A stretch of DNA of 27,697 nucleotides. Source: a virus. Both the position numbers and the translations under genes were made by a program. The notes under the pieces are model-generated. The model searched no databases and was not told the DNA's origin. It saw only the letters and a program-made list of their open reading frames with translations. Of the stretch, positions 9,565 through 24,912 are shown in pieces (position 1 is the stretch's first letter; each line of letters opens with the position of its first letter). The stretch covers positions 1-27,697 of the IMG/VR virus record IMGVR_UViG_3300010883_000320; one strand, written 5' to 3'.

Positions 9565-11346
9565 TTATATGTTTTTGGGGAGCCCTCGGTCTTTGTGTAC
9601 TGGCCCCAAATTAGCTGTAAAATCGTCGCCATTTCCGCTCGTGTCGTCAACCGTCACCACGTCTACTCCATCTGCCAGGTCGTCGCACACGAGATAAATG
9701 AGCTCGTTAAATAGGCCCGTCGTGTTATCGCCGGTTATCCCTGCGGCGTACATCCCCGCCGCCTCGCTGGATGAGATCGCGGCGTTGGTTAATACGACCT
9801 TGTAGATCCACCCGTCCATAGGGTCTCCGCCCGATGACGCCGCGCCGATATCTAAGTAGCCATTGTCGGCGTCAACCGTTCCACTGCCCTTCGTGCCCGT
9901 GACGGACATGTCGCTACCCCCGTCAATATAGACCTCCGTCTGGGTCGACAACAAGGCCGTGGATTGTCTGAAGACGATCACGAAATGGTGTATTTCGCCC
10001 GCCGTGAACGCGGCGTTAGTTGTCGTGATGTCGGTTTCTGTCGATGCGTTGGCCGCTCGAAAACGGATTTTGCCTGCCGTGGTGACCGTAATGGCCCATC
10101 CGTCAGTGTCTGCGGCCGGCCCGCCGCTGGGATCAAGGTAATCGGTCTGAGCCAGGCACGACTCCGCGGCGAATGAATTGAAGAGAACCCAGCCGGAAAT
10201 CGAGAATACGTACGGACTTGTCGCCAGCAGGTCGGCAAAAGCAGTGGAGTAGCCTACGATATGGTCGTTTGTTCCGTCAAATTCGATCCCTGTCACCACG
10301 TCCAGCAGATCCTGGTTGCGGTCATTCGCTGCCTCGAGTTGGCGCGCGTACTGCTCGACCGTGGGCCTCGGGTCGCCAGCGTCAACCGAATAGAGCTGAA
10401 CGCCTGGACGCTCAAATCCGGTCGAAATGCGTGATATGAGCGCGTCTTCCGCGGTGATCCCATAACCACTGTCTGTTATGTTTTGCAGCTGTCCCACCAC
10501 TAGGTCGTCATCGGTTGTTTGGTAACTGAAAATCCGACGATCGCCGCGCAGTGAAATCAACGATTTCGCATACGCTGCAGCCTGAAGGGCGTCGGTCACC
10601 CACGGAAAACTGAACATGGACGTGTAGCTCACCGCCGTTCCAGATGAGCCCTCAACCATGAGCCCTGTCTCGTCGTTGACAGCGCCGTGAACGATCACTC
10701 TCTCAAGAGGTTTGTGCGATGTGTTCCCGACGGATAGGTTCCGAACATCGTCGGTTCCACCTGCTCCCCCGTCGTCTACGTCAAAAGCCGCATCGTTGAC
10801 CGATGGGGTCGCGAAAAAGTGCAAACCCTTATCTGCGTGGTCTACACGCCACCAGGCGCCGGTGCGTAGGGATAAGTCGTCCAGGACCTGTCGGACGGTG
10901 GCGTCCTTGTAGGCCGCCAGAATGTCTTCGCCGTCGCCTGTGATGACGTCAACGTCGGCGTCCAGGGCCGTAATTCCGCCGGGGTCTCCAGCGTCTGAAA
11001 TCACGGCTTGGATAATCTCACGATTATTCCGCGACGGGAATCCGCGATTGATCAAAGGCGTGTGGTTGTCTAGATACCACTCAAGCCCGCGGACCTCCGC
11101 TACGCAGAAAAAGTTAGCGCCATCAAGTCCGCGGACCTCCCTAGTTACTTTAACGATGCGCCCCTCAAAAACCACAGCAGCGCCTTCGAGCACCTGCACG
11201 GTCTTGTCGGTTAGCACGTCAGTGGCAGATGTGGCCGTCCACGTGAACGAGCCTTGCGATTCGCCGCCCAAAGTGAACTCCCACGACGACTCATCAAACA
11301 GCGGCTCGCGCGTCGAGCCGTTGTATTTAACCGTCAGTTCAGCCAT
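9565..11346 (-). CDS. Tail hub/tip protein with C-terminal LamG-like lectin domain
   Basis: The 593-residue protein lies immediately downstream of the tape measure gene, where siphoviruses place distal tail or hub proteins; the two overlap by one base. Residues about 1-345 look like a beta-rich hub part (short strands, a DNREIIQAV-like helix, GVQLYSVDAGDPRPTV). From about 350 on (GIEFDGTNDHIVGYS, ISGWVLFNS, IHHFVIVFRQ, TEVYIDGG, LDIGAASSGGDPMDGWIYKV) the pattern is that of a LamG/concanavalin-like jelly roll, typical of sugar or host-surface binding. I infer a receptor-binding role. The exact domain boundary cannot be fixed by eye. Confidence 0.75.
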   Translation of the reverse strand: MAELTVKYNGSTREPLFDESSWEFTLGGESQGSFTWTATSATDVLTDKTVQVLEGAAVVFEGRIVKVTREVRGLDGANFFCVAEVRGLEWYLDNHTPLINRGFPSRNNREIIQAVISDAGDPGGITALDADVDVITGDGEDILAAYKDATVRQVLDDLSLRTGAWWRVDHADKGLHFFATPSVNDAAFDVDDGGAGGTDDVRNLSVGNTSHKPLERVIVHGAVNDETGLMVEGSSGTAVSYTSMFSFPWVTDALQAAAYAKSLISLRGDRRIFSYQTTDDDLVVGQLQNITDSGYGITAEDALISRISTGFERPGVQLYSVDAGDPRPTVEQYARQLEAANDRNQDLLDVVTGIEFDGTNDHIVGYSTAFADLLATSPYVFSISGWVLFNSFAAESCLAQTDYLDPSGGPAADTDGWAITVTTAGKIRFRAANASTETDITTTNAAFTAGEIHHFVIVFRQSTALLSTQTEVYIDGGSDMSVTGTKGSGTVDADNGYLDIGAASSGGDPMDGWIYKVVLTNAAISSSEAAGMYAAGITGDNTTGLFNELIYLVCDDLADGVDVVTVDDTSGNGDDFTANLGPVHKDRGLPKNI

Positions 11347-14999: not shown

Positions 15000-15416
15000 T
15001 TACGCGACAGCTCTGGTAATGGCTCCGGTTGGCTGTAGCTCAACGTTTGCGATTGCCATGTCGCCCACGCTCCCCTGGATTGGCGTATAGGCCGACACGA
15101 TATACGAGCCTTGGTAATCCGGGTTGGTGGCCGCCGTTGACGCGGAAGTCGCTTTGTAGTTGCAAGCTATTGCGGCGCCTCCATTGAAAGCTGACCAGAT
15201 CGTCGCATCGGTCTTACTAGAAGCGAAATCTTGGAGTAACGTTAGCGATAGCGAGCGGGTCTGTAGGCCCCCAGCGCCAACTGTGCGAGTTGTGTTACCC
15301 ATGGACGTGTTATCCGGGGTTTCCACCCCCAGATTGAGCGTCGCTGAGACCACACGATCGGACAGGTCTACAGAATTGAAAAGTATGGTTCCATCAGTAA
15401 ACACGACTTCAGCCAT
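15000..15416 (-). CDS. Tail-tube-like protein, short paralog (138 aa)
   Basis: This protein shares with the next two upstream genes an N-terminal pattern (MAEVVFTDG, then SMGNTTRTVGAGG) and the strong block SAYTPIQGSVGD near the C-terminus, so the three are paralogs. It lacks the extra C-terminal domain of the longer two. Its position directly before the chaperones is that of the major tail tube protein, which makes it the best candidate for the main tube subunit. The ATG has GAGG ten bases upstream. A strong hairpin follows the stop. Confidence 0.72.
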   Translation of the reverse strand: MAEVVFTDGTILFNSVDLSDRVVSATLNLGVETPDNTSMGNTTRTVGAGGLQTRSLSLTLLQDFASSKTDATIWSAFNGGAAIACNYKATSASTAATNPDYQGSYIVSAYTPIQGSVGDMAIANVELQPTGAITRAVA

Positions 15417-15465
15417 AAAATTTTTACCTCATAACATTGATCCCCTTCCGCTGGTTATATGCATG

Positions 15466-15509
15466 CCACCTAAGCACGCGCCCCCGCGCGCGTTTTAACC
15501 CTCAGGTGG
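15466..15509 (-). promoter_or_regulatory. Two-level stem-loop between paralogous tail genes
   Basis: CCACCTAAG (15466-15474) pairs with CTCAGGTGG (15501-15509) with one mismatch, and inside it ACGCG (15476-15480) pairs with CGCGT (15489-15493). It fills most of the 100-base gap between the stop at 15517 and the next ATG at 15416, the longest gap in the tail cluster. On the plus strand the inner stem is followed by TTTT, on the minus strand by none, so for the minus message it is better read as an attenuator or processing structure. Confidence 0.45.
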
Positions 15510-15516
15510 TAGATAG

Positions 15517-16236
15517 TCAGACCGTCTGTAGTCCCATGAAGCACTGTACGGTTACGGACGTAAACGTTCCAGACAGATCCACCGCCCAGTAGTCGTCGGT
15601 GATCGAGCCCGCCACCGTTCCCAGCTCCGAGCCGATGGCTGTAAACTGGGTGAGCGTGACGCGATCGGTCGCGGTCGACATCCCGGAGTTGTCGTCCGAC
15701 TGAAGTTTTATTGTGCAGTTGGTTCCGTTAAACGCAGTGACGTGGGCCGCGATGAAACACACTTGAACAGCGGACGGGGCGCCAAGCTGGATTCCCGCTC
15801 CTGTAGTGATCGACGAATGGGCGCCCGTGAGGTTTAGCTGGCCGCGATAGGTCGGATCCCGCGCCATGGCCTCAATGTTAAACGTGAGCAGGTCGCCGGG
15901 GCTGCCTTGAATGGGCGTATACGCTGACTGGATGGTGTTTATAGAGTAGCTCGTATTGGTTAAAGTTAGCCCCTCCGGGGATACCGTTACGAGCTTATCG
16001 GTAGCACTTAGCGCGCCGAATTGTTCGTCTACGGTGCTGGTTCCGTACTCAACCTTGCCTGTTCCAGACCAGGTCGACTGCCACAGCCCGCCAGGGGCTA
16101 CAACTCGGGACGTGGACCCGAACGACGTAGCGTCTGGGGCCTCCTGGCTAATCGAGAATTGGGTACTCTGGAATTGCGCCGCGAAATCGTAGCTCCCCCA
16201 GAGCAGCTTCAAGTCCTTCAGAATAAATTCACTCAT
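15517..16236 (-). CDS. Tail-tube-like protein, long paralog 2 (239 aa)
   Basis: It is a paralog of the proteins at 15000-15416 and 16249-16962: it has SFGSTSRVVAPGGLW where the short one has SMGNTTRTVGAGGL, and SAYTPIQGSPGD in the same relative place. After about residue 128 it carries an additional domain (TYRGQLNLTGAH, GIQLGAPSAVQVCFIAAHV, then FTSVTVQCFMGLQTV) that is also present in the 16249-16962 protein. The extra domain may project from the tube surface or form a decorated segment. ATG 16236 is 12 bases after the upstream stop, behind GAGGA. Confidence 0.68.
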   Translation of the reverse strand: MSEFILKDLKLLWGSYDFAAQFQSTQFSISQEAPDATSFGSTSRVVAPGGLWQSTWSGTGKVEYGTSTVDEQFGALSATDKLVTVSPEGLTLTNTSYSINTIQSAYTPIQGSPGDLLTFNIEAMARDPTYRGQLNLTGAHSSITTGAGIQLGAPSAVQVCFIAAHVTAFNGTNCTIKLQSDDNSGMSTATDRVTLTQFTAIGSELGTVAGSITDDYWAVDLSGTFTSVTVQCFMGLQTV

Positions 16237-16248
16237 TTGTGATCCTCT

Positions 16249-16962
16249 TCATGCCGACTGCAGGCCCAGGTAGGCTTCGACTGTGATACTTGAGAAGGTT
16301 CCGATTACCGCGATGCGCCACCAGTCATCGGTGTCGCCTCCCGCGAATATAGCCAGCTGGTACTCTCCGGCATTAGAGGAGCCTACGAGTGTGTTACCGA
16401 AGCCGGTGAACGCATTATCCGACGACTGGATGATTATTTGGTAGTTCGTCCCGGTAAATGCGGTGGCGTGTACCAGCGCGAAAACAACGTCTGAGGCGCC
16501 CGGGGCGCCAATCTGGGTAGCGCCCCCGAATATATAGCCCGAGGAGGTCCCGGACAGGTGATGCTGCCCCCTGTACACGTTTCCGATCGCGGTGAGCGAA
16601 ACAGAGAAAGGAAGCACGTCACCGACGCTGCCGCCCGTTGAGTAATTGGTGGGTAGTGCGAGCATGGAGTAGGACACATTGTGATCAGCCAGGGTCAGCC
16701 CACCCGGGACGACCGTCATCATGTTTCCAGCGGTCGTCATGTCGTTCCAGGTTCCGTCCACATCCTGGCCCGAGGCTATCCATTTCCCCGACCCGGAGAA
16801 ATGAGCCGTTTTCTTTCCTGATGCAAACGTTCGAGTTGTCCCGGTTATGTCCGTGTTTCCAACCACTTCGCGGCCTAGCTCAAGCGAGGCCGACTGAAGC
16901 TGCCCGCTGAATATGTCATCACCATAAATCATCGCTAGATCGGTCAACACCAATTCCGCCAT
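16249..16962 (-). CDS. Tail-tube-like protein, long paralog 1 (237 aa)
   Basis: This 237-residue protein has the same two-part plan as the 15517-16236 product. The N-terminal part includes DITGTTRTFASGK and a Gly/Ser stretch (TNYSTGGSVGD) matching the SAYTPIQGSxGD block; the C-terminal part shares VYRGQHHLSG, QIGAPGASDVVFALVHATAF and ITVEAYLGLQSA. The ATG at 16962 overlaps the previous stop (TAATG). Three tube-like genes in a row are not usual for siphoviruses. One may be the tube, the others a collar, a tip cap or tube-surface proteins. Confidence 0.68.
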   Translation of the reverse strand: MAELVLTDLAMIYGDDIFSGQLQSASLELGREVVGNTDITGTTRTFASGKKTAHFSGSGKWIASGQDVDGTWNDMTTAGNMMTVVPGGLTLADHNVSYSMLALPTNYSTGGSVGDVLPFSVSLTAIGNVYRGQHHLSGTSSGYIFGGATQIGAPGASDVVFALVHATAFTGTNYQIIIQSSDNAFTGFGNTLVGSSNAGEYQLAIFAGGDTDDWWRIAVIGTFSSITVEAYLGLQSA

Positions 16963-17772: not shown

Positions 17773-18123
17773 TTACGTGTGGTCCTTGCACAGCAGCTCC
17801 GAGAACTGCAAGTGGCCTGTTACACGCCGGACGTATACCACGTCCAGTGTTTTCTCTGTCGCGACCCGGCCATGTCGCGGCGTCCAAAATATACGCATCC
17901 CCACATCGGCTTCCTTGTCTGCGCGATGAAGTATAAAGACCCGGTAGGTGGCCTCGGCGTTCCTCACCCCCCGGTCTAGCGCTTCAAGTCCAGATAGGGG
18001 CATAACTCGCGCCCATGCGGTCATGTGAGAGGCCCACGTTAGCGTTGGCTCGTTCAGGGCGTTGAAAACCTCGGTAGCGCTCTTGATCGTGATCCGCTCA
18101 TCTAGCTGGCCGAGTGTAGGCAT
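17773..18123 (-). CDS. Phage head closure protein (head-tail joining)
   Basis: The 116-residue product has the head-closure pattern seen in SPP1 gp16 relatives: LDERITIKS at the start, the strand TWASHMTAWARVMPL, and the C-terminal VVYVRRVTGHL. It seals the head after DNA packaging and contacts the tail. It overlaps the connector gene by one base at 18123 and precedes the gp10-like gene. Confidence 0.8.
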   Translation of the reverse strand: MPTLGQLDERITIKSATEVFNALNEPTLTWASHMTAWARVMPLSGLEALDRGVRNAEATYRVFILHRADKEADVGMRIFWTPRHGRVATEKTLDVVYVRRVTGHLQFSELLCKDHT

Positions 18124-18719
18124 TACGCTCGCACGATCCTATACGGCCACCAAAGGTTAAACGACGTTCGGCTCATCTCCACTCTTGACCCACCTATGGA
18201 GAACTCTTCACCTTGAGCATTGCGATATGCGTCGGCGCATTCCAGGAGCAGGCCGGCTTTGATACTGTCCGGGATTTCGTCCGCGGTGCCTAAGCCCGAT
18301 AAGTGCCTCACCACTACGCCATTTATGGTCTTCAGTGTTACGGCGGGCCAGGACTGGGCGTACTTCAATGCGACGCGTCCCGGCTCGGGTGCTGCGTTGG
18401 CCTCATATACAGTCGTGGCTACCACCGTTGACGTGTCACCGGAGTCGGTATAAGTGATTGACGTTACGGACTGAAGACGCCCCCCGGAAAGCACAAGGCT
18501 ATCTGACCCGCCGGGAAAGGCGTCGAACGATTCATCCACCGTTCGCTCGATCAAGTATCTGCCAGTGAACGTCTCGCACCGAGCCCGCGCGGCCCGGATG
18601 ATCGACCAGAGCCGCAAATCTTCAGCTGTGTCGTCGCGCTCGATGGCGAGGTGATCCTTTAACTCGTCTAGCAATAGCGGCTCGTGCGCGGCAGCCGTTA
18701 CGGTTGTGCTTCTGCTCAT
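18123..18719 (-). CDS. Head-tail connector protein (gp6-like)
   Basis: The 198-residue protein fits the gp6-like connector family: a helical start (EPLLLDELKDHLAIERDDTA), then RLWSIIRAARARCETFTGRYLI, which carries the family's conserved ARxxCExxTGR block, followed by a beta segment and a final helix near SIKAGLLLECADAYRN. It forms the ring under the portal. Its start overlaps the end of the gene upstream by four bases (18716-18719). Confidence 0.85.
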   Translation of the reverse strand: MSRSTTVTAAAHEPLLLDELKDHLAIERDDTAEDLRLWSIIRAARARCETFTGRYLIERTVDESFDAFPGGSDSLVLSGGRLQSVTSITYTDSGDTSTVVATTVYEANAAPEPGRVALKYAQSWPAVTLKTINGVVVRHLSGLGTADEIPDSIKAGLLLECADAYRNAQGEEFSIGGSRVEMSRTSFNLWWPYRIVRA

Positions 18720-19051
18720 GTCTTTGCCGGCTTCAGCGTGACGTTACCGCGTGAAACCACACTCTCGTTAGCTGATCCGTCAGTCACTTTGAGTTGGTGC
18801 CAATATACCCGCGGCTCTAACGAATCCGTGTCGGTGTCGGCAACCGTAACCGTGCATACCCCGTTGGCCGCGTCCGTGATCACCCCTGCGACAGTGAGGG
18901 CCGCTGAGCTAGCCATGGGGTGCGTATAGAGCTTCCAGGCTATTGTGTAGGCCGTGATGTTAATAGCCGTCGTGCCGTCGGAAGTCACGGTGAATGAAAT
19001 AGTCCGGTCTTCACCTACGTCAAGGTGGAAGTGTTGGTTTACCGCGCTCAT
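18716..19051 (-). CDS. Ig-like structural protein (111 aa)
   Basis: A beta-rich protein: N-terminal LDVGEDRTISFTVTS, then AWKLYTHP and VTVADTDTDSLEPRVYWHQLKV. It resembles the N-terminal Ig-like unit of baseplate or decoration proteins and small head-decoration proteins. I cannot name its family. The ATG overlaps the stop of the repeat microprotein (TCATGA), and its stop overlaps the connector start, so it belongs to the same coupled run. A decoration or assembly role is inferred from place and fold. Confidence 0.55.
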   Translation of the reverse strand: MSAVNQHFHLDVGEDRTISFTVTSDGTTAINITAYTIAWKLYTHPMASSAALTVAGVITDAANGVCTVTVADTDTDSLEPRVYWHQLKVTDGSANESVVSRGNVTLKPAKT

Positions 19052-19215
19052 GACTTCGCCGTGAAGGATGTCTGGGCCAGCAGTCCGCTAAGACTTGGAT
19101 TGGCTGCTGTCGCGGTGAAGGATGTCTGGGCCAGCAGTCCGCTAAGAGATGGATTGGCTGCTGTCGCCGTGAAGGATGTCTGGGTCAGCAGTCCGCTAAG
19201 AGATGTCGAGCTCAC
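19048..19215 (-). CDS. 55-residue repeat microprotein, three 18-residue units
   Basis: A GTG start (19215-19213), with GAGGGGG about ten bases upstream, opens a 55-codon frame that overlaps the previous stop (GTGA) and the next start (ATGA). Its product is nearly all repeat: SLSGLLAQTSFTATAANP occurs twice, the first copy with Thr in place of Ala at position 8, and the third is cut to 13 residues plus Lys-Ser. The DNA repeats are 54 bp, with few differences. Coding is supported by both coupled junctions, a clear ribosome site, and a repeat length that is an exact multiple of three. The sequence is Ser/Thr/Ala-rich, without charge apart from the last Lys. Function unknown; it lies among head-tail genes. 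Confidence 0.7.
   Translation of the reverse strand: MSSTSLSGLLTQTSFTATAANPSLSGLLAQTSFTATAANPSLSGLLAQTSFTAKS
19061..19205. repeat. 54-bp tandem direct repeat, about 2.7 copies
   Basis: Copies start at 19061, 19115 and 19169; each begins GTGAAGGATGTCTGG on the plus strand and the last ends at about 19205. The units are joined without spacers. The array lies wholly inside the minus-strand frame 19048-19215, where it codes for 18-residue units. Sites that differ between units are few and include silent and non-silent changes. Confidence 0.9.
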
Positions 19216-19553
19216 GTTATGCGATCCCCCTCTGTGATGTGCTTGATCAACTTCTTAAGGAACGCCTTCAGGTCGCTTATGCTTGACAGGCTATCGACAA
19301 TGCTGATCAGCCGCGCCCGCTCATATAGCTTGTCGGGGCTCCAGTTTGACCGATTGGCGTTGATCGCCACCACTAAATCATCGGCGGCGGACTGCGTAAC
19401 GTCCCTGCCGAAAACAATTGTTCCGACCTTTGATTTTCGGTCCAGTGTAACGGTGGCCACGTTATCGTTCGCCGCCTTTGCAAACTTTAGAACCTGATCC
19501 TGCCCCGGCCAACGCGAGCCGGCGTTAAGGTTGAACGTCTCGTGGCTTGACAT
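19212..19553 (-). CDS. Unknown phage protein (113 aa)
   Basis: The preferred start is ATG 19553 with an AAAGAAG stretch ahead; the frame is open to a TTG at 19595 but that segment is read in another frame by the basic small protein. The product has a beta-like start (NLNAGSRWPG), Ser/Asp-rich middle, and a helical end with KLYERARLISIVDSLSSISD and basic KAFLKKLIKHITEG. No family recognised. Its stop overlaps the GTG of the repeat microprotein. Confidence 0.55.
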   Translation of the reverse strand: MSSHETFNLNAGSRWPGQDQVLKFAKAANDNVATVTLDRKSKVGTIVFGRDVTQSAADDLVVAINANRSNWSPDKLYERARLISIVDSLSSISDLKAFLKKLIKHITEGDRIT

Positions 19554-19689
19554 GCTTGCGCTTCTTTCGTTTTGGTTTGTTACCGGGAGGTTCAATCTGA
19601 GGCCCGCGGAGCTCAGCGGACCTCAGATCGAAAGCCAAAGTCTCAACCGCTTTACGTGCCCGGTCGAGACGATTGCCAAGGGTTTCCAT
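19525..19689 (-). CDS. Basic small protein (54 aa)
   Basis: An ATG at 19689, two bases after the previous stop, opens a 54-codon frame: an N-terminal amphipathic helix (NRLDRARKAVETLAFDLRSA), a Pro/Gln linker, then a very basic stretch (KPKRKKRKHVKPR) likely to bind nucleic acid or acidic protein. It ends 29 bases inside the next gene. No clear ribosome site; reinitiation after the TAA is a plausible mode. It is short and its reality rests on position, helix pattern and lack of another gene in the gap. Confidence 0.45.
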   Translation of the reverse strand: METLGNRLDRARKAVETLAFDLRSAELRGPQIEPPGNKPKRKKRKHVKPRDVQP

Positions 19690-19691
19690 TT

Positions 19692-20216
19692 TTAGGCGGA
19701 CCAGTCAGCAGTCACCGTAGTGTCGGACCCGCGAACGGTTCCCAGTGCGGCGTTCACTGTTACGTCTTCGTTAGCGGTGTCTACCAGGCGAAGTGTGCAA
19801 GTGCCCGCCGCCGTCGTGAGAACCTTGAAATGGTCAGTCGAAACGTGAGTGGCCACGAGGTCGCCCACTTGGAAGGCCGGCCCGGTCGAGTGGGTGTGGG
19901 CTGAGCCGCCAACACCCGTAGCGAGATCCGATAGCCATACGTCGATAGGGACAGGCGAGGTGATCGCCGTTCCATCGGGGTCAAGAACGGTAATGACTAC
20001 GTCAATCGTGTTGGATGCCGCGTTGGCCGCGACCACTGTAATCGATCCGACCGCCGCCGATGAGGCGTTAAGGTCAGCAGCCGTTGCGGTGATTGCAGTT
20101 CCCGCGACGGCCAATTCGATACCCTCCGGCGCAATAGCCGCAACCTGCGTTCCGCTGCCGTCTTTAAACGTCAGATTGCCGTTTGACCAATCCGACGTTA
20201 CATCTGTCTGGGGCAT
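19692..20216 (-). CDS. Capsid-associated (decoration/fibre-like) protein (174 aa)
   Basis: The protein opens with a short beta part ending in VAGTAITATAADLNASSAAV, a stretch like those of phage head-fibre and decoration proteins that repeat ITATAAxLN, and continues with Ig-like strands (SITVVAANAASNTIDVVITV). It lies two genes after the capsid gene, the usual place for decoration proteins. AAAAGGA precedes the ATG by a few bases, and the very stable UUCG hairpin (20239-20264) ends about 22 bases upstream of the ATG. Confidence 0.6.
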   Translation of the reverse strand: MPQTDVTSDWSNGNLTFKDGSGTQVAAIAPEGIELAVAGTAITATAADLNASSAAVGSITVVAANAASNTIDVVITVLDPDGTAITSPVPIDVWLSDLATGVGGSAHTHSTGPAFQVGDLVATHVSTDHFKVLTTAAGTCTLRLVDTANEDVTVNAALGTVRGSDTTVTADWSA

Positions 20217-20276: not shown

Positions 20277-20744
20277 TTAGATTACGGTGGTGGGCGATAC
20301 GCCTTTTCGACTCTGGTCGACAAGGGCGAAGACGGCTGCGTCAACCGGGGAATCGGCGGACTCGGTTAAGGTGAGGCTAACGTAGTCGAAACCTTCCGTT
20401 AGTTCGTCGCGGTAAACTTCCACGAGGGTCGCCTTTGCGGCGCCCGCCGCGGGTGTTACGCCCGAGGCCGTCGCTGTCTGCCATGCGCCCCAGGTGTCAA
20501 GGCCGCCCGCCGTCGTTAGCAAACGATAACGGAAGGCGATGTCCGCGGTGCTGGTCCCGGTGTTCGTTGTGGCATTGGATAGCGTTACGATGGCCGTCCC
20601 GGTCCCGCCAGCGCCCTCCGCTATAACGAAGCAGACCGTTCCATCGCATTTGATCCAGTCCGTGGTTGGATCTGTGTTGTAGCGGTCGGCATCCGGCGCC
20701 AAAGCTAACGGGATTATGTGAATGTTTTCTGAAATTGTGCTCAT
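20277..20744 (-). CDS. Decoration-like protein downstream of the capsid gene (155 aa)
   Basis: The start chosen is ATG 20744, with AAGGA six bases upstream; a longer reading to 20855 lies inside the capsid gene and is rejected. The 155-residue product is beta-rich with repeated Thr/Gly stretches (TGTAIVTLSNATTNTGTS, GVTPAAGAAKATL) and charged DELTEGFDYVSLTLTES near the end. The place, 32 bases after the capsid stop, is typical of a decoration or stabilising protein. Family not identified. Confidence 0.6.
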   Translation of the reverse strand: MSTISENIHIIPLALAPDADRYNTDPTTDWIKCDGTVCFVIAEGAGGTGTAIVTLSNATTNTGTSTADIAFRYRLLTTAGGLDTWGAWQTATASGVTPAAGAAKATLVEVYRDELTEGFDYVSLTLTESADSPVDAAVFALVDQSRKGVSPTTVI

Positions 20745-22887: not shown

Positions 22888-24912
22888 TTACCCCGGGACT
22901 AACATGCAGTTGCAGCCCTTGTGCAAGGGCGGATTCATCAGGTTTCGTTTGATCTTCAGAGGCCCTTTCGCCCCGGATGGATTGAAGTCGGTTTTGCCTA
23001 AAAACTGCTGGCCCTTTGTGACCCTCTTTCCTCGCATGGCGCTGCAGAACGGGCAGCTTCTCCCGAACGTGACCCAGACCAGCCCGTAGCCGTTAGCACT
23101 AAAGGTCTCCCTCGAGGTGATATTGGACAGCAGGAATGCTTCGCGTTGACCCCAGCGCTCCGACCGGGACCGACCGGCTCCGCCGTCCTCCCAATTAACC
23201 AGCCGGTCCTCGATTGCTTCGGCCACATTTTCGCCGGCTTGCTCGGCTTTGAGTGCGACGATCGACAACTGGTTGGTGGTCGATCGGCCCCAGTTCCGAG
23301 CCGCTATAGTCGCGTAGTCATCTACGGACTGAGCCACATCGCCCGCTGTGTCTAGCCCTATTTCGAGCGCCGACTGTGAAGCTATGTCGACGGCAAGAGC
23401 GAGAAACTGAGGCTTGAGAGCCGCGGCTACTTTCTCGTTCTGGGCCTGCGTGTATTTGCCAAGCCATTCTGCGAACGATTCCGCTGTCCGGCTAAGAACC
23501 TGAGGGGAGACAGCCCGTATGGCCTTGGCGTCCTGCTGTAAAATCCTTGCGTATACCGACTCAATCGGCCCCGCGTAGCGCTGGGTGGTGTCCCGTCGGC
23601 CGATCGATCCCCTTACTTCAGCCGGCGTCAACCCGGCGGCCATATTCTCTTGTACTTGGTCCTCGTCTTCTTCTTCTTCGGGCTCCGCTTTAGGTTCTCC
23701 GGTCATCGTGCTAAGCGGCCCCAGGTTGAGTGGTACTAGCGATTCATCGCCGCCAGGTACGGACTCAAGATCAAGCCGCGCACGAGCTTCGTTCACTGTG
23801 TTCATTCCGCCGTGAACAGCTATCGACAACCCTTCCATTCGCGTTTTGAAATCACCGCGAAGCAGGGCGTCTACGTTGTGTTTGACGTAATATTGGGTTC
23901 GCTCATCCGGCGTCAAAAACGCCGCTTCTATCGCCTGCTCCATGCTCACGAGGTCGGGCATCAGCGTGTATTGCAGATACTCAAGGGCCTGGTGTTCGAT
24001 ATTGGAAAACGTAGCCCGATCCAGCCCGTTCAGCCTGTGTAGCGGGACCAGGAACACTTGAGCCAGGACTTCCTTATTCCATCGCTGGGTCTCCATGAAC
24101 TGGGCTTCGTTATTCGGTATTTTAAGGGTTTGAGCTACGTCCATTCCGCGCGGCAGCACGGCGACTGTAGCCAGCCCCCTCTTTCCCATGAACTGCTTGT
24201 TCCAGCTGTTTACGAACTCGGTTTTGTCGTCTTCTGTGTCGAAGCCCGTAGGGTGCGTTAGGATCGTTTTCGGCTGGGGGCTAGTGAAGTAGGACGCCCC
24301 GTACTCGTTTAGGGCTATGGTCGAGCCGAAGGCATCCATGTTCCAGCGTATAGGCGAGACTCCCGAGAATCCATCAAACGATAGCCCGAAGTTGTGCAGC
24401 ACTTGATCGGAGGTCAACTTCCTCGGCTGGATTTCCCCGGTCGGAGTGTATTCAAACGTCTTAACGCCGTCGGTCACGCGGACCCTCATCCGCTCTGCGT
24501 TGAGCGGCCACGTAGTTAAGCCGCCCAGCCCATCCCTTACGATCTCCGAGTAGTCGTTCCCATAGGTGTGAACGGACGCCCAACCTCTACGCCTATATAT
24601 GGTCGAAGTCATGAGCGGATTGGGTCGCTTGATCCACTGCGCTACCGGGTGTTGGGTCACCTCCGCGCGACCGCCACCAGCCTTTCGCTCGTAGAGCTTC
24701 AGCGGGAGTGCGGATTTATCCCGCGACAAGATGTTGATGCAGGCGTAAGCCGTGGCGCAGCGGGCGCCGTTAGACTCAGAAACAGACACGCCTGATGGAG
24801 TCGGCTTCCCGAAATCACCCAGGTCAATTATTTGGTCTAACTGAGCCACGCTTAGGTCTACGCCTCTAAGGGCTGCCGAGGCCGCCTTGATTCTGTTCAG
24901 GATTTTCATCAT
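22888..24912 (-). CDS. Portal protein with C-terminal MuF-like domain
   Basis: This 674-residue protein is longer than a typical HK97 portal (about 420-480). Residues 1-415 look like a portal, with NGARCATAYACINILSRDKS, QHPVAQWIKRPNPLMTSTIY and LVPLHRLNGLDRATFSNIEHQ. After a Glu-rich linker (PEEEEDEDQ) the rest is helical and ends in a SCPFCSAMRGKRV...PPLHKGCNC pattern like the C-terminus of Mu gpF head-morphogenesis proteins. Fusion of the two is known in some phages. The ATGATG start overlaps the terminase stop by four bases. The portal forms the DNA-entry ring; the MuF part may be a minor head protein delivered with the ring. Confidence 0.88.
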   Translation of the reverse strand: MMKILNRIKAASAALRGVDLSVAQLDQIIDLGDFGKPTPSGVSVSESNGARCATAYACINILSRDKSALPLKLYERKAGGGRAEVTQHPVAQWIKRPNPLMTSTIYRRRGWASVHTYGNDYSEIVRDGLGGLTTWPLNAERMRVRVTDGVKTFEYTPTGEIQPRKLTSDQVLHNFGLSFDGFSGVSPIRWNMDAFGSTIALNEYGASYFTSPQPKTILTHPTGFDTEDDKTEFVNSWNKQFMGKRGLATVAVLPRGMDVAQTLKIPNNEAQFMETQRWNKEVLAQVFLVPLHRLNGLDRATFSNIEHQALEYLQYTLMPDLVSMEQAIEAAFLTPDERTQYYVKHNVDALLRGDFKTRMEGLSIAVHGGMNTVNEARARLDLESVPGGDESLVPLNLGPLSTMTGEPKAEPEEEEDEDQVQENMAAGLTPAEVRGSIGRRDTTQRYAGPIESVYARILQQDAKAIRAVSPQVLSRTAESFAEWLGKYTQAQNEKVAAALKPQFLALAVDIASQSALEIGLDTAGDVAQSVDDYATIAARNWGRSTTNQLSIVALKAEQAGENVAEAIEDRLVNWEDGGAGRSRSERWGQREAFLLSNITSRETFSANGYGLVWVTFGRSCPFCSAMRGKRVTKGQQFLGKTDFNPSGAKGPLKIKRNLMNPPLHKGCNCMLVPG

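Follow-up and report, generated by a model that had tools for sequence, protein, structure and literature searches.

What might a peptide of 55 residues, made up of tandem repeats, do among the head and tail proteins of a phage, and is it made at all? The question is raised by a stretch of 27,697 nucleotides (positions 1 to 27,697 of IMG/VR virus record IMGVR_UViG_3300010883_000320), hereafter called the window, in which a short minus-strand frame lies between the capsid genes and the head-tail connector gene. The frame, its repeats and its ribosome-binding site are as follows.

19048..19215, minus strand: repeat microprotein, 55 aa, GTG start, units SLSGLL(T/A)QTSFTATAANP x2.8
19056..19205, minus strand: 54-bp tandem array found by Tandem Repeats Finder, 2.8 copies, 94% matches
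19220..19235, minus strand: ribosome-binding site of the microprotein, AGAGGGGGA, anti-SD pairing -11.1 kcal/mol

The frame of 55 codons with a GTG start that had been proposed in the initial annotation was confirmed at 19215-19048 on the minus strand, as were the claimed overlaps with both neighbours: its start overlaps the stop of the preceding gene as GTGA, and its stop overlaps the start of the following gene, which encodes 111 residues, as ATGA. Three copies of an 18-residue unit had also been described. Tandem units of 54 bp are indeed present and in frame, and Tandem Repeats Finder reports this array, with a period of 54 and no indels, as the only one in the whole window; the copies, however, amount to 2.8, the third unit stopping after 13 residues and ending in KS, and the units are not uniform, the first having T where the remaining ones carry A. 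Apart from this Thr/Ala change the full units differ by two synonymous codon changes, TCT to AGT (two bases, with Ser kept) and ACG/ACC. The 18-residue unit has a weak two-fold internal similarity (p 0.04) and may itself be composed of two 9-residue halves. Lys occurs once in the peptide and Arg is absent, a composition that a tryptic digest would miss.

The ribosome site of the microprotein had been described as good, and it proved to be the strongest among the 27 gene starts of the window that were tested for anti-SD pairing; for random positions the 5th percentile lies at -8.5 kcal/mol. When codon use was scored with a model based on 17 confident genes, the minus frame reached 0.111 versus a wrong-frame 99th percentile of 0.088, a difference worth only about 18 codons of evidence because the array reads one unit three times. 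The plus-strand frame across the array is also open, with a codon score of 0.068, and one could suppose that it is this antisense frame that codes, or that the array serves as an element at the level of DNA or RNA. We consider such explanations very improbable, since the ribosome site and the overlaps suit the minus frame and no plausible plus-strand gene is seen amid the minus-strand head and tail genes. The RNA structure of the array is not unusual (folding z 0.32) and the array matches no Rfam family, on which grounds an RNA element was rejected. No sigma-70 promoter was found inside the region. The earlier claim that the microprotein is translated within the head-tail region is backed by its ribosome site, by its codon use and by the overlaps within the operon, and the frame is a real and probably translated small gene of the head-tail operon.

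Two metagenome contigs contain the same locus. One (L003) matches the window without a difference over 6,792 bp, including the array, and the other (L002) shows a single difference in 5,007 bp, at 16295, which is outside the array. Because it is identical in both, the array is no artefact of assembly. Three units is the sole copy number observed in the window, L002 and L003; the suggestion that copy number varies between relatives is therefore not supported, and in this phage there is likewise no evidence for the proposed length-tunable spacer.

The supposition that no described phage protein contains the 18-residue unit was borne out by searches of phages, plasmids, viral and genome contigs, PHROGs and Pfam. 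No relative was found in phages, genome contigs, PHROGs or Pfam; the plasmids gave one chance match at E 10, and among the viral contigs the microprotein matched only within the same virus. Thirty-seven related records yielded no relative either. When modelled alone from its single sequence, the microprotein is given no confident fold by AlphaFold (pLDDT 46), and it matches no decoration family in PHROGs or Pfam.

The operon begins with the terminase, portal, protease and major capsid genes, followed by two hypothetical proteins, small frames and the microprotein; after the latter come the 111-aa gene, the head-tail connector, head closure, and the neck and tail genes. The genes closest to the microprotein are listed below.

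18123..18719, minus strand: head-tail connector/adaptor (phrog_442, Phage_connect_1)
18716..19051, minus strand: phrog_1084 protein, 111 aa, predicted from profile and structure to have an Ig-like fibre-anchor fold (like T5 p132/LtfC and BppU_N)
19212..19595, minus strand: hypothetical upstream gene, 113-127 aa, whose stop overlaps the microprotein start (GTGA)
19692..20216, minus strand: hypothetical 174-aa protein within the capsid-to-connector interval
20277..20744, minus strand: protein adjoining the major capsid gene, possible decoration protein, start probably ATG 20744

Several other genes of the window deserve comment. The portal gene (22888-24912, minus strand) is unusually long at 674 aa, and its product may have an extra C-terminal domain. 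On the same strand, phrog_9522, a major tail protein, is matched by the genes at 16249-16962 and 15517-16236, and that at 15000-15416 resembles the two of them in motifs, as judged by eye; the three consecutive genes of 15000-16962 look like tail-tube paralogues. The C-terminal third of a 593-aa protein of the tail region (9565-11346, minus strand), for which the PHROG match is weak (9.2e-05), resembles by eye a LamG-like carbohydrate-binding domain.

In relatives located with capsid, connector and terminase queries, the cargo genes of the capsid-to-connector interval differ from phage to phage, and no short repeat gene comparable to that of the window was found in the interval. A spring-water phage (L012, 2864-4990) carries there, adjoining the connector, a gene for a GDSL-lipase-like protein of 708 aa.

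The most informative neighbour is the product of the next gene. This 111-aa protein matches phrog_1084 at 2.4e-11; a weak match to phrog_3304, the family for assembly of L-shaped tail fibres, was also obtained. When 28 members of the family were combined into a profile, this matched T5-type p132 in the PDB (E 7.5e-07), and in Pfam BppU_N is matched by 13 of the 28 and LtfC by nine, the window's own member matching neither. AlphaFold models the 111-aa protein with high confidence (pLDDT 91). When this model was compared by VIA-align, the Z scores were 11.3 for p132 of DT57C, 11.2 for p132 of T5, 11.3 for a mycobacteriophage baseplate protein, 10.6 and 10.2 for the neck chains of Sf14 and Bas63, 9.9 for the neck of P74-26, and 9.4 for BppU_N of TP901-1. 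Phage anchor proteins rank first with both Foldseek and VIA-align, and unrelated immunoglobulins come next, at Z ~8. The predicted structure makes it likely that the 111-aa protein is a neck or fibre anchor, a shared fold alone being no proof. A pattern scan of bacterial genomes gave no confirmed phrog_1084.

The phrog_1084 start has no ribosome site of its own (-2.1 kcal/mol, compared with -11.1 for the microprotein), and the connector start is in turn weak (-2.7) and overlapping. These values, together with the ATGA overlap, are what one would expect of a translational entry point, where the ribosome site of the microprotein loads ribosomes that restart at the ATGA on phrog_1084 and the peptide is a passive by-product. 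Such a role is the chief alternative to the explanation favoured below, and conceivable, though we lean against it: a coupler requires just a few codons, it is left unexplained why the leader should consist of 18-residue units repeated in frame and differing mostly by synonymous changes, and weak sites are common in the window, the portal, tape measure and tail terminator genes all managing without a strong one.

What precedes phrog_1084 in other phages bears on the function of the microprotein. Scans of viral contigs gave approximately 125 phrog_1084 genes, 34 of them non-redundant, and the upstream slot was taken as the nearest gene of at least 80 aa before phrog_1084. At 8 of 33 loci this upstream gene encodes a tandem-repeat protein, as do 8 of the 193 remaining genes at these loci (Fisher p 5e-4), in a test that covers remote relatives (22-47% identity), with a repeat threshold of our own choosing, loci picked by their similarity to phrog_1084, and genes treated as independent. 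The upstream repeat proteins included the following.

L107: 372 aa; its phrog_1084 protein is the closest outside this virus (47%)
L108: at least 140 aa, running off the contig end
L127: 804 aa
L126: 622 aa
L136: 1,391 aa
L054: 985 aa
L131: 1,028 aa
L004: 416 aa
L137: 95 aa, just below the threshold

Downstream of phrog_1084 a tandem-repeat protein is present at 6 of 32 loci, several of these proteins being collagen-like; some loci thus have the repeat protein on the downstream side and others have none. In another group of phages, represented by L021, L023, L025, L027, L033, L036 and similar loci, the gene after phrog_1084 encodes a collagen-like (GXY) repeat protein, and a glycosyltransferase-like gene is often found nearby upstream of phrog_1084.

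The microprotein has in-frame tandem repeats and is encoded on the same strand as phrog_1084, directly upstream of it. In this it resembles the upstream proteins of L107, L108, L127, L126, L136, L054, L004, L137 and L166, which occupy the same slot, have in-frame repeats, and often overlap or adjoin the phrog_1084 start as the microprotein does. At L108, L127, L126 and L166 the order is repeat protein, phrog_1084 and connector (phrog_477); the window has the same order, but with phrog_442 as the connector. The same-slot proteins of these distant phages differ from the microprotein in their size, which is far greater and varies widely from 95 to 1,391 aa, and in their units of ~10-30 residues, which show no significant similarity to the 18-residue unit. 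By local alignment, the latter scored against the L108 repeats with a p of 0.23 relative to permuted units, and against those of L107 and the other upstream proteins it did not rise above permuted units; the value for L136, p 0.046 among eight tests, is weak. With a profile of the L108/L127 units, 405 of 2,000 permuted units scored at least as high as the real one. A DNA likeness to L108 (AG-GGACTGCTGGCC) that is striking by eye was not outstanding in a DNA search of all loci. The kinship of the microprotein with the upstream repeat proteins is one of position and architecture only, with no sequence homology detected.

The long repeat proteins with which distant phages fill this slot, and the truncated final unit of the array, would also suit a relic, that is, the remnant of a longer repeat protein that has been shortened by deletion or slippage and is now functionless. 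This we regard as unlikely. The start, the strong ribosome site and the frame are all intact, the overlaps with both neighbours are precise, units differ mainly by synonymous changes, and three contigs carry an identical array.

A further characteristic of the upstream proteins of L107, L108, L127 and L166 is that their last ~60 residues consist of repeats with a period of 10-11 residues, unlike in sequence to those elsewhere in the same protein and cleanest in L166 (GGGDVTQELSV). Short-repeat C-terminal tails occur in 5 of 33 upstream genes and in 3 of 193 others (p 0.002); L166 is an extra case. The microprotein may be a free-standing form of these tails, an idea formed after viewing the data, in which case it would be an independent array of strands threaded into the Ig-like anchor ring, where it completes or locks the neck collar; as a specific model this is quite unlikely, more so than a relic.

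The explanation that we favour, at a probability of roughly 0.4, is that the microprotein belongs to the virion as a miniature structural partner of the 111-aa putative anchor, located at the neck or at the fibre base. As a very short repeat segment it would fill the slot for repeat proteins that lies before the anchor, translational coupling would ensure that it is made in step with the anchor, and it would bind the latter at the neck or at the base of a fibre. This location is suggested by the gene order and by the predicted fold of the neighbour, and the link between microprotein and anchor is one of position, not of sequence homology. We surmise from this arrangement that the peptide accumulates, sits in virions and binds the anchor. 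The initial annotation had proposed a head-tail or decoration role, of which the structural part agrees with the predicted anchor fold and with the recurring repeat proteins in the slot; head decoration has gained no specific support.

If the positional link is true, repeat proteins are encoded next to a neck fibre-anchor gene in many tailed phages, and ordinary annotation overlooks genes of such small size. An orphan microprotein would also gain a structural partner, and the slot would indicate where uncultured phages encode their neck fibres.

Known phage systems invite comparison. In T5, p132 forms a dodecameric collar bearing grafted fibres, and an unmodelled density that threads between the p132 subunits may represent ~50 N-terminal residues of the fibre (PMC10038345). 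The 111-aa neighbour of the microprotein has the fold of p132 (LtfC), as judged from a Z of ~11 and the profile match of 7.5e-07. The p132 collar of T5 is at the tail tip, whereas here the anchor gene adjoins the head-tail connector, and unlike the T5 fibre LTFpb1 the microprotein is no fibre and has no detected sequence relative.

The N-terminal domain of TP901-1 BppU, which like p132 of T5 holds fibres by means of this fold, has the same Ig-like anchor fold as the 111-aa protein (Z 9.4), but it is located in the baseplate and has another partner.

The neck of Sf14 carries two sets of whiskers, which are built of gp30 and gp31 (PMC11821841) on the adapter gp37. The fold of the 111-aa protein is shared by neck chains of Sf14 and of Bas63 (Z 10.6 and 10.2). 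No short repeat peptide such as that of the window is mentioned in the available portions of the Sf14 and Bas63 neck descriptions. The location of these chains at the neck is in agreement with the gene order of the window, where the anchor gene stands next to that of the head-tail connector.
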